Assembly (NCBI RefSeq): GCF_037996645.1
Contig: NZ_JBBMXV010000001.1
Span: forward strand, 605,917 to 669,916
Reading direction: 5' to 3'
Source: Halalkalicoccus tibetensis
GTDB lineage: Archaea > Halobacteriota > Halobacteria > Halobacteriales > Halalkalicoccaceae
DNA length: 64,000 bases
The translations under genes were made by a program, and so were the position numbers. The notes under the pieces are model-generated. The model saw only the letters and a list, made by a program, of their open reading frames with translations. It searched no databases and was not told where the DNA came from. Shown here one piece after another: positions 3,346 to 58,753 of the stretch. Position 1 is the first letter of the stretch. Each line of letters starts with the position of its first letter.

Positions 3346-3546
3346 ATGCGCGCAGTCTCGGTTTCGGTCGCGGCCCTCCTGCTCGCGACCGCGGTCCTGG
3401 CCCTCGGGGCCGTCGCGACGTTCGCGAGCACCCTCTCGACTGACCCCCGATCGGTCGGCACGCTGGCCGCCCTGACCCTCGCGGTGGTGGCCGCGGTCGC
3501 TCTCGGGATCCGGACGGCAAAGCGCTCGCGGACGTCCTACTGGTGA
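3346..3546 (+). CDS. Small two-helix membrane protein, unknown
   Basis: A 66-residue protein with two hydrophobic segments, about residues 3-28 (VSVSVAALLLATAVLALG) and 37-55 (TLAALTLAVVAAVALGI), and a basic end. I prefer the ATG at 3346 to the upstream in-frame ATG at 3319, which adds only a polar nonapeptide. Its stop codon TGA is the first base pattern of hairpin array A (the TGA overlaps GAAAGCCCTC), so the array lies in its 3' untranslated region. Function unknown. Confidence 0.55.
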   Translation: MRAVSVSVAALLLATAVLALGAVATFASTLSTDPRSVGTLAALTLAVVAAVALGIRTAKRSRTSYW

Positions 3547-3870
3547 AAGCCCTCGGCCGGACTCGACAGTCCGGTCTCGCCCGTTTCATGTCCACGAAAG
3601 CCCTCAGCGCTCGCTGGCGCTCGCGCTCGCGCTTCGCCCTTTTCATGTCCAAGAAAAGACTGCTGCGCAGTCTTTTCGGGCTGAGCGGCGACGACGTCGC
3701 CGCGAGGTCCGCGGGAACTGCGTTCCCGCGAGATCCCAGAAATCGAAGATTTCTGCGGACCACCAGGACCGTTTGCGAGGGGTTCGGATCCGAACCCCTC
3801 GCTTAGGACGCCAGCCCTTCCCCGTTCGATTCGCGGCCACGGGCCGCGAAGCGAGGCCACCGCATGGCCG
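3545..3870 (+). repeat. Hairpin array A
   Basis: A run of about eight short inverted repeats separated by fixed linkers. Clear stems (arm; loop): 3555-3576 (9 bp; CGAC), 3653-3677 (11 bp; TGC), 3685-3703 (8 bp; GAC), 3710-3730 (9 bp; TGC), 3737-3755 (8 bp; GAA), 3775-3802 (28-bp perfect palindrome) and 3830-3850 (9 bp; ACG). GGTCC at 3706-3710 and GGACC at 3757-3761 can pair around two of them. The unit GAAAGCCCTC ... CGCCCTTTTCATGTCCA occurs twice (3545-3594 with one mismatch, 3596-3651). Linkers match array B near 46.7 kb while most stems do not. No open frame explains it. Confidence 0.85.
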
Positions 3871-46450: not shown

Positions 46451-46539
46451 GGCGTGTGCGCGTCCTGATCTCTGCGACGCCATCGGCATAAACGGTGGCG
46501 TCAGCGACCGGCTGTGGACGGCGAAACTGACGATGGCCT

Positions 46540-46808
46540 CGCTCAGCGGGCGCCGATCCGGCGCCCGCTGAGCGAACGGGGAAAGGCTGGTTTCCCTAAG
46601 CGAGCGGTTGCGATCGCAACCGCTCGCAAACGGTCCTGGTGGTCTCGAAAATCGCTGCGCGATTTTCTGGACCCAGAAAGGCCGCAAAGCGGCCTTTCTT
46701 AGGAAATGAAAAGGGCGAGCAGGGCGAGATTGCTTCGCAATCTCGCTTGCGAACGGGACGCGAAGCGTCCCGTGAGGAACGCACGCCAGTGCGTTCCGAG
46801 GGCTTTCG
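46540..46808 (-). repeat. Hairpin array B
   Basis: Directly after the aEF-1beta stop codon, in that gene's direction, seven stems follow one another. In plus coordinates (arm; loop): 46776-46797 (9 bp; GCCA), 46753-46773 (9; GAA), 46724-46746 (10; TTC), 46676-46698 (10; AAA), 46647-46667 (9; TGC, enclosed by GGTC/GACC), 46600-46627 (28-bp perfect palindrome) and 46540-46574 (16; ATC). Linkers match array A: GAAAGCCCTC, CGCCCTTTTCAT, CCACCAGGACCGTTTGCGAG (identical), and CCAGCC(C/T)TTCCCCGTTCG. Confidence 0.85.
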
Positions 46809-47075
46809 TTAGATGCGACCGACGTTCTGGACTTCGACGCTCTCGACGCCCTCGACCTCCGAGAAGCGCTCCTCGACGGCCTCCGTCCCGCCTGCATCGT
46901 CGGGGACGATCACGGTCGGGAGCAGCGCCACGAGGCCGAAGGCGACGTCGTCGCGCTCGAACCCGTTGATCTTCGCGCCCTCGGGCAGCGAGCCTTCCAG
47001 TCGGTCCTGGAGCTCGTCGAGGTCGATCTCCGGGTCCTGGGGCATGACCTTGAGCTTGGCGGCGACCTTTCCCAT
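46809..47075 (-). CDS. ef1b: Translation elongation factor aEF-1beta
   Basis: An 88-residue nucleotide-exchange factor for aEF-1alpha. [49 protein letters not shown] and [15 protein letters not shown] cover the whole domain. It follows the zinc-ribbon gene by two bases. Its stop codon borders hairpin array B, which therefore forms its 3' untranslated region. Confidence 0.95.
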
Positions 47076-57532: not shown

Positions 57533-58330
57533 ATGGGAGCGACGCTCGACCACGTCATGATGCGCGTCTCGGACCTGGAGGAATCGCTCGAGTGGTACGG
57601 CGAGCACCTGGGCTACGAGGAGAAGGACCGCTGGGAGGCCGACTCCTTCACCAACGTCTACCTCGGCCCCGAGGAGCTCGGCGAGGAGGGCGCGATGCTC
57701 GAACTCACCCACAACCACGACGGCGGGCCCGACGAGATGGGCGACGCCTGGGGCCACATCGCCGTGCGGGTCCCCGACGGCGAGCTCGAGGAGCACTACC
57801 AGCAGCTGATGGACGAGGGCGTCGAGGACTACCGGGACCCGGAGTCCTGTGGCGGGCGCTACGCCTTCGTGAAGGACCCCGACGGCCACGAGATCGAGAT
57901 CGTCAAGCGCGACCCCGAGCAGGGGGCGACCTGGTCGATCGACCACACGATGATCCGCGTCGAGGACGCCGACGAGGCGCTGGGCTGGTACACCCGGAAG
58001 TTCGAGTACGAACACACCGGGCGCTGGGAGGCCGACTCCTTCGCGAACTACTTCATGAAGCCCGAGGGGGCTAGTGATGAAGCGATGGCGCTCGAACTCA
58101 CCTACAACTACGGCGACAACACCTACGATCTCGGCGATGCGTGGGGCCATCTCTGTGTGCGCGCCGACGACCTGAACGAGTTCTGGGACGACCTGATGAC
58201 GCGGGGCGCCCCGGACTACCGCGACCCCGAGTCCTGTGACAACGAGTACGCGTTCACGACGGACATGGACGACCACGAGATCGAGATCATCGAGCGCGAC
58301 CCGAACAGCGACTCGCTGTTTCCCGAATAA
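57533..58330 (+). CDS. Double glyoxalase/VOC-domain protein
   Basis: A 265-residue protein of two tandem VOC domains (about 1-128 and 135-265). Each has the pattern LDHVMMRVSDLEESLEWYGEHLG or IDHTMIRVEDADEALGWYTRKF, a GDAWGH(I/L) strand, and a final HEIEI(V/I) strand, giving the His/Glu metal ligands of glyoxalase I. The product may detoxify methylglyoxal or act as a dioxygenase-like enzyme. I start at MGATLDH; nine upstream codons are not family-like. A short copy of its 3' end lies 215 bases downstream. Confidence 0.88.
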   Translation: MGATLDHVMMRVSDLEESLEWYGEHLGYEEKDRWEADSFTNVYLGPEELGEEGAMLELTHNHDGGPDEMGDAWGHIAVRVPDGELEEHYQQLMDEGVEDYRDPESCGGRYAFVKDPDGHEIEIVKRDPEQGATWSIDHTMIRVEDADEALGWYTRKFEYEHTGRWEADSFANYFMKPEGASDEAMALELTYNYGDNTYDLGDAWGHLCVRADDLNEFWDDLMTRGAPDYRDPESCDNEYAFTTDMDDHEIEIIERDPNSDSLFPE

Positions 58331-58331
58331 C

Positions 58332-58351
58332 CCGCTGCACTGCGGTTTTTT
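58332..58351 (+). terminator. Hairpin and T-run after the VOC gene
   Basis: CCGC-TGCACT-GCGG is followed by TTTTTT, directly after the stop codon. This looks like a simple transcription terminator. Confidence 0.55.
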
Positions 58352-58353
58352 GT

Positions 58354-58507
58354 CGCCAGAAACCGGAGGTTCTGGCTGCTAACCAGAACGCGAAGCGTTC
58401 CGGTGATGTGGTCAGAGCTTCGCTCTGACCGCCTGCCGTACGTAGTCCGGCAATGTGGCTGGAAGCCACTGGCTTCCAGCTACTAATCGGACAGTTTCCT
58501 GTCCGAT
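58354..58507 (+). repeat. Hairpin cluster C
   Basis: Six stems follow at short spacing: 58354-58375 (GCCAGAA..., one bulge, loop GGA), 58383-58402 (loop GAA), 58410-58430 (9 bp, loop TTC), 58434-58452 (loop GTA, one mismatch), 58458-58480 (10 bp, loop ACT) and 58486-58507 (9 bp, loop TTTC). Spacers are four to seven bases such as TGCTAA and TGATG. It does not share the linkers of arrays A and B, but it has the same style of stems with three-base loops behind a stop codon. Confidence 0.75.
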
Positions 58508-58544
58508 GATGGAGGAGGTTTTTGCGTGAGCGAGTGGCGAAGCC

Positions 58545-58622
58545 ATGAGTGAACGGAAAACGGTCTGGGATATGGAGATCATCGAGCAAGATCCGAATGC
58601 AGAGTCGCCGTTTCCGAAATAG
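58545..58622 (+). pseudogene. Remnant copy of the VOC gene 3' end
   Basis: The last 16 codons, MEIIEQDPNAESPFPK and TAG, mirror the end of the VOC protein, IEIIERDPNSDSLFPE. The in-frame ATG at 58545 gives a 25-codon frame. The nucleotide sequences are similar but diverged, so it is an old duplicate or the remains of a deleted second paralogue, now surrounded by hairpins. Confidence 0.65.
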
Positions 58623-58635
58623 AAAACGTTGCGGA

Positions 58636-58706
58636 CCGGCGCGGCGGAGCCGCGCCGGGGTTTTTGGAGGAGATTTTTGCTCCGAGCGGGTCGCTACGCG
58701 ACCCCG
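58636..58706 (+). terminator. Two hairpins with T/A runs before uppP
   Basis: CCGGCGCGGC-GGA-GCCGCGCCGG (58636-58658) is followed by GGTTTTTGG. GGGTCGC-TAC-GCGACCC (58687-58704), framed by CTCC/GGAG, is followed by AAAAA. The first looks like a terminator for the upstream unit. Both use three-base loops. Confidence 0.5.
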
Positions 58707-58753
58707 AGGAGTAAAAAGGTCCGTAGGAAAGGTCCACGTCGAAACGCCACCCC

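Follow-up and report, generated by a model that had tools for sequence, protein, structure and literature searches.

Two intergenic regions of the stretch of Halalkalicoccus tibetensis DNA analysed here (64,000 nucleotides; hereafter the window) carry arrays of hairpins, A and B, in which short linkers recur in a fixed order while the stems between them differ. What kind of element keeps its linkers and its base pairing while exchanging its stems is the question that this locus raises. Comparison across haloarchaea showed that A and B are two copies of one dispersed element, for which dispersal, site stability, maintained pairing, stem replacement, and strand-specific mismatch and loop rules are all established. 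We prefer to read both arrays as belonging to a family of dispersed repeats between haloarchaeal genes that act as a structural DNA element, similar to REP or ERIC, with about as much reason to doubt this reading as to accept it.

Two copies of one element in the window

Array A spans positions 3546-3863 on the + strand and array B positions 46531-46806 on the - strand. An earlier note, based on the letters of the window, had claimed that their linkers occur in the same order on opposite strands, that they share an identical 20-mer, and that each starts at the stop codon of the preceding gene. All three claims held, and every linker named was present. The first base of A is the A of the TGA stop (3544-3546) of a 66-aa open reading frame (3346-3546, +), a small putative membrane protein, as the note had it, without Pfam match. 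Array B begins 2 nt past the TAA of a gene (46809-47075, -) whose proposed identity as aEF-1beta (EF1_GNE) was confirmed (PF00736, E 7e-23). Perfect hairpins with stems of at least 8 bp reach 21.9 per kb in the arrays vs 0.5 per kb for the remaining window (about 40-fold), and no third copy of the element was found in the window.

The anatomy originally proposed for both arrays had to be corrected, since A contains two H1 units and the H1 base of B is interrupted by two additional hairpins. In A, the first H1 unit, AAAGCCCTC-GGCCGGACT-CGAC-AGTCCGGTC-TCGCCCGTT (3546-3585, +), matches our covariance model (G000:C1:609462-609501 in genome coordinates), and the second (3597-3642, +) has a stem 6 nt longer than in another copy, copy C (L036). 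Four inserted hairpins follow (3653-3755, +), at 3653-3677 (loop TGC), 3685-3703 (loop GAC), 3710-3730 (loop TGC), and 3737-3755 (loop GAA), with GGTCC (3706-3710) and GGACC (3757-3761) closing around the last two. The array continues on the same strand with the linker CCACCAGGACCGTTTGCGAG (3760-3779), hairpin H2, a 12-bp palindrome with a GATC centre (3775-3802), the linker CCAGCCCTTCCCCG (3811-3824), hairpin H3 (3826-3854), and the conserved 3' end GGCCACCGC (3855-3863).

In B, all on the - strand, the H1 5' linker and stem-loop GGAACGCAC-TGGC-GTGCGTTCC (46776-46806) are separated from the 3' base TCGCCCTTTT by two inserted hairpins (46753-46773 and 46724-46746). The linker CGCCCTTTTCATTTCC (46702-46717) is followed by two further inserted hairpins between H1 and H2 (46647-46699; at 46675-46699 and 46647-46667), an exact CCACCAGGACCGTTTGCGAG (46642-46623), H2 with 12 bp and a GATC centre (46600-46627), the linker CCAGCCTTTCCCCG (46577-46590), and H3 with a 17-bp stem (46539-46575). 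The GGTC(C)/(G)GACC closure claimed for both arrays holds in A, while in B it reads GGTCC/GAGACC. Elsewhere in the 3.6-Mb genome CCACCAGGACCGTTTGCGAG does not occur, even allowing three mismatches. A second, different cluster of GNA-loop hairpins (e.g. aaccGGAggtt, aacgCGAAGcgtt) lies at 58330-58720 of the window, with repeated GGAGGAG(G/A)TTTTTGC linkers and without H1 linkers.

Across all copies compared, the core is about 150 nt and consists of three hairpins, H1-H2-H3, within fixed linkers, and additional hairpins frequently separate H1 from H2. Read on the top strand, H1 forms a 40-mer, AAAGCCCTC-N9-TGGC-N9-TCGCCCTTT, nearly always exactly 40 nt long although 18 stem positions vary. Next come T(CAT)(G/T)TCC and, in some copies, 41 to 120 nt of inserted hairpins; (A/G)CCAGG..CCGC then leads into H2 (a palindrome of 9-13 bp centred on a GATC-type sequence), which a G-rich stretch (e.g. 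GAGGACG) separates from CCAGCC(C/T)TTCCCCG, H3, and CGGCCACCGC. In one copy (L231; G001:C1, about 369850), the H1 loop is itself invaded by two further hairpins, forming nested palindromes. Another group of copies in Halapricum and relatives (L058, L070, L125-L129) has another kind of tail behind H1, GCGGTGCCGCGCCGATCGGCGCGGCATCCGC ... CGCACCGC repeats and CCCCGTTCCTCCCCGG, and is probably a second subfamily of the element.

Distribution and age of the sites

A search of this genome and related haloarchaea with the linkers only, proposed in the earlier note as the test of its reading, was positive, with many copies behind stop codons and with changing stems. Linker-defined H1 units numbered 17 in the H. 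tibetensis genome and 3-20 in six congeners, compared to 0 for the reversed-pattern control. A covariance model of H1 (R1) had 20 matches in the same genome (G000) and 4-23 in other congeners, and matched 49 of 146 sampled Halobacteriales genomes (about a third), from 20 of 56 genera and 8 family labels. R1 was strongly multi-copy in f1/g1, f6/g7, and f7/g8, and its matches in families f5, f13, and f17 were few and weak. A linker search requiring TGGC, with at most 3 mismatches, matched 40 of 392 Halobacteriales genomes, and contigs of H. paucihalophilus also carry the element. When 84,980 species were scanned with the linkers only, leaving stem and loop free, 21 of the 23 haloarchaeal matches could form 7-9 of the 9 stem pairs, whereas only 1 of the 49 non-haloarchaeal matches formed 7 or more, and two viral-contig matches were unpaired. 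The highest H1 copy numbers (29-42 per genome) were observed in three f6/g7 genomes (G041, G014, and G058), often as shortened variants of 33-35 nt.

Conventional searches returned nothing comparable. An exact search for the 20-mer in the genome contig collection gave no match, hence the shorter 40-mer design; Rfam 15 detected only tRNAs in the window at gathering score and only sub-threshold chance matches for seven copies with E up to 5; and BLAST of one query copy against INPHARED (phages) and PLSDB (plasmids) gave no match. Sequence searches miss the element because its longest parts change wholesale, while a linker pattern or covariance model detects it. The note had known of no described haloarchaeal element with this design; this is consistent with Rfam and the papers searched, and the family is likely undescribed, although such searches are not proof.

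Synteny with two to four congeners holds for most loci, where the coding flanks are for the most part 77-93% identical. Several sites extend across families, where the element follows the same upstream gene and starts between -2 and +8 nt relative to its stop codon. Such sites follow aCPSF1 (TIGR03675; families f1, f6, f7, and f8), glutamate dehydrogenase (f1, f6, and f7), a FAD-binding reductase (FAD_binding_6; f1 and f4), gyrB (f1 and f6), a small protein ending DMWYSEVRSFL* (f1 and f4), and a protein ending HVTIH* (f1 and f7). Two provisional labels of upstream proteins were rejected, 'dph5' for one that matches FAD_binding_6 and 'acs-like' for one identified as aCPSF1 by TIGR03675. The stems differ between families at these common gene ends, and the element is absent from the aCPSF1 site in several other families. 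Copies have also been lost and gained: the L176 site is filled in one congener (G001) and empty in four, three lack an element at the L163 site, and in G004 only a deleted remnant of L160 is left. Old sites shared by descent are the simplest interpretation, with repeated insertion at the same gene ends not excluded.

Maintained pairing and exchanged stems

Pairing is maintained while stem sequences turn over, by both ectopic conversion and compensated substitution. Across 90 distinct H1 stems, 723 of 810 pairs (89%) are Watson-Crick, and 23 of 30 predicted pairs in aligned cores show changes on both sides. A covariation test limited to one orthologous site, the one following aCPSF1 (12 species, two families), removes between-locus differences. 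Here, 95.2% of H1 pairs were standard, with 43 double-change cells vs 15.3 +/- 2.8 in shuffles (reached by 0 of 500) and a covariation of 0.621 vs 0.162 in shuffles (0 of 500), a signal destroyed by sliding the partner. This site includes intermediates, e.g. GCGAGCGCC/AGCGCTCGC with a single C-A mismatch, and the outermost helix covaries as well, from AAAG/CTTT to TAAG/CTTA in other genera. As the copies are related, p-values from them overstate the evidence.

Stem replacement is equally visible. Orthologous H1 stem-loops average 58% identity vs 49.5% for non-orthologous copies, and 8% are identical, while identical stems recur at unrelated loci. Array A and copy C share an internal block of 249 bp (238/249, 96%), and the 45 bp flanking either side are unrelated, aligning at chance level; this common block inside unrelated flanks reflects ectopic gene conversion. 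The earlier suggestion that the structure is selected or that stems are replaced as cassettes is thus supported, with both processes visible, one in the aCPSF1 shuffles and the other in the A/copy C block. The element accordingly offers a natural comparison of stem exchange by conversion vs compensated substitution, at single orthologous sites (aCPSF1) and in multi-copy families. A larger rearrangement also has copies of the element at its breakpoints: between L151/L152 in G000 and L169/L170 in G001, two inverted copies about 50-60 kb apart, the flanks are exchanged, apparently through an inversion.

A repeat without function, in which template switching and gene conversion alone keep the palindromes perfect, could in principle generate such patterns. 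Ectopic conversion is frequent, identical stems occur at unrelated loci, and inverted loops (GCCA for TGGC in L201; ACTTTC for GAAAGT in L177) are what errors in palindrome replication typically leave. However, conservation across families extends to linkers outside the palindromes, tandem T-C mismatches persist uncorrected at fixed positions, the same gene ends retain the element across families, and single-copy Natrialbaceae have no obvious second H1 copy from which to convert. We therefore consider this explanation unlikely.

The folded strand, gene context, and competing explanations

Mismatches and loops indicate which strand folds. In H1, T-C/C-T mismatches outnumber G-A/A-G mismatches 51:1 (12:1 when collapsed to 30 stem clusters, p=0.003), and are nearly all tandem 5'-TC/5'-TC, i.e. 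tandem 5'-GA/5'-GA when read on the bottom strand; for tandem mismatches in H3 the ratio is 24:0. These tandem mismatches sit at fixed stem positions, and 88 of 90 H1 stems have a loop that reads GNNA on the bottom strand. Among inserted hairpins, 46 of 53 have 3-nt loops, mostly closed by C-G, and 34 of these 46 loops are GNA on one strand, in both orientations, resembling the very stable DNA mini-hairpins of the d(GCGAAGC) type. GNA and GNNA loops are known rules for stable DNA hairpins, although we found no direct source for a GNNA DNA tetraloop in the literature searched. Based on the recurrent tandem T-C mismatches and the GNNA/GNA loops, the folded form is likely the bottom strand, an inference from sequence alone. 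Two further candidate signals did not hold: an excess of G-T over A-C wobbles (47:20) fell to 12:10 once related H1 stems were collapsed, and a kink-turn reading of bottom-strand H1 (tandem G-A, flanking GGC/GGG) was dropped because the loop is symmetric.

The bottom strand is also predicted to be the more stable one, in 31/31 cores with RNA parameters and 30/31 with DNA parameters. The difference between strands is -11.0 kcal/mol with RNA parameters vs -4.2 with DNA parameters, and tandem G-A and GNNA are stable in RNA too, so that thermodynamics does not decide between DNA and RNA. We favour DNA as the folded molecule, an inference without experiment, but the same motifs would also suit RNA.

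Gene context bears directly on this choice. A first count (28 convergent, 10 tandem sense, 9 tandem antisense, and 10 divergent) suggested no orientation preference, a reading dropped because genes had been miscalled and orthologues counted repeatedly. Recounting per locus gave ++ 8, +- 7, -+ 6, and -- 4; after the IscA, window A, and L036 loci were read directly, the 25 loci comprised about 9 tandem sense, 8 convergent, 7 divergent, and 1 tandem antisense. The top strand is thus the sense strand at a gene 3' end at about 17 of the 25 loci, and by about 9:1 in tandem contexts. Of 38 copies behind an upstream gene in the same orientation, 29 start within -1 to +5 nt of its stop; next to a divergent gene, the distance to its start codon is often 37-43 nt, which roughly matches a promoter's edge. 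Gene calls around the copies rest on composition and open frames. Neither the A+T profile nor the A/T runs beside 68 copies showed a peak or a promoter-like positional signal, and a model in which the element has its own promoter was rejected on these grounds. Together with the context, this probably rules against a simple autonomous RNA gene, while a role at 3' ends remains the main rival to our reading.

In this main rival, which remains possible, the element is co-transcribed with the upstream gene and serves to end transcription, or to protect or process the mRNA. In Haloferax, terminators consist of T-stretches that end at C, some of which use hairpins (PMC7237163), and the element similarly presents a sense H1 hairpin that abuts the stop codon and leads into TTTTC. 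The tight spacing behind co-oriented genes and the tandem sense bias also favour this explanation, as does the presence of the element on the termination factor gene aCPSF1 itself in four families. If it acts in RNA, the element would be a conserved signal for 3' ends, carried even by the gene for the archaeal termination factor. However, it is far larger than these terminators, some 7 of the 25 loci separate divergent genes, several of them 37-43 nt from a start codon, and the divergent copies have no obvious transcription since no A+T peak adjoins them. Moreover, the sense strand is the less stable in nearly every core, the T-run is lost in TAAG...CTTAG variants, and a terminator needs no conserved H2/H3 linkers.

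A further explanation is mobility. A Y1 HUH transposase of the REP/RAYT or PATE/IS200-IS605 type would have moved a non-autonomous element in the form of folded single-stranded DNA, and mostly old copies would now remain. REP/BIME repeats (PMC3733652, PMC8266576) are likewise extragenic, located near gene ends, built of a short conserved tag and a palindrome, and present in many copies, with subfamilies having alternative complementary stem residues and conserved stem mismatches; where tested, they are recognised as folded single strands. Strand-specific hairpins, conserved mismatches, and linkers resemble both REP and IS605 ends (PMC8266576, PMC3119063), and one site occupied in G001 lacks the element in four congeners. 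In contrast to REP, described so far in bacteria only and with no haloarchaeal family in the text of the REP paper (PMC3733652, PMC8266576), the element has no GTAG or CGTC tag at the hairpin foot, which reads AAAGCCCTC/TCGCCCTTT (AAAGGGCGA/GAGGGCTTT on the bottom strand), and consists of three hairpins in fixed order rather than single or inverted pairs. Several carriers lack a RAYT gene, and sites are common to several families, largely shared by descent, with no copy found on phages or plasmids by one query copy. Y1_Tnp (PF01797) was not found in G000 (97% complete), G001, G002, G014, G041, G042, or G139, which carry 1-42 copies, and a Y1 transposase is therefore rejected as current mobiliser; we consider this explanation unlikely. 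The PATEs and SMRs of Haloquadratum (PMC3119063) are also haloarchaeal, non-coding, palindrome-bearing, and dispersed, and attract nested insertions; however, PATEs resemble IS605 ends and include many strain-specific insertions, while sites of the element are old and shared, and the H. tibetensis genome has no Y1 gene. ERIC and BOX repeats of bacteria, at about 100-150 bp, are similarly intergenic, modular or imperfectly palindromic, and positionally stable between related species, but they keep their stem sequence, whereas the element keeps its linkers and exchanges its stems.

The structural DNA element, our preferred reading, may work as follows. A bottom-strand DNA hairpin would be exposed when the strand is single, or as a cruciform, and a host protein, not identified, would read the shape, the loop, the tandem G-A motif, and the linkers rather than the stem sequence, leaving stems free to be replaced. 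Its origin was probably mobile, and it may no longer be actively jumping; because positions are stable, we propose a domesticated, useful site, e.g. for a nucleoid, topology, replication-fork, or recombination protein. This reading is no better than evenly matched by its difficulties: no binding protein or experiment supports it, the tandem sense bias is not required of a purely DNA-level element, and losses at some loci show that no single copy is indispensable. A bolder version, which we are mildly inclined to doubt, would posit a shape-coded DNA site, a bottom-strand hairpin trio at defined gene ends (among them aCPSF1/FttA, gyrB-gyrA, and glutamate dehydrogenase) that predates the split of several haloarchaeal families, with stems as exchangeable cassettes and an unknown protein reading loop, tandem G-A, and linkers. 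This is inferred without binding data; if true, the element would be a chromosomal signal conserved in structure and not in sequence, and a protein reading its shape would be an archaeal counterpart of REP or other folded single-stranded DNA recognition. As a separate observation, in the H. tibetensis genome the assembly has gaps inside one + copy (L155) and in L159 (poly-C or poly-G plus N), which raises the possibility that folded DNA blocks sequencing.
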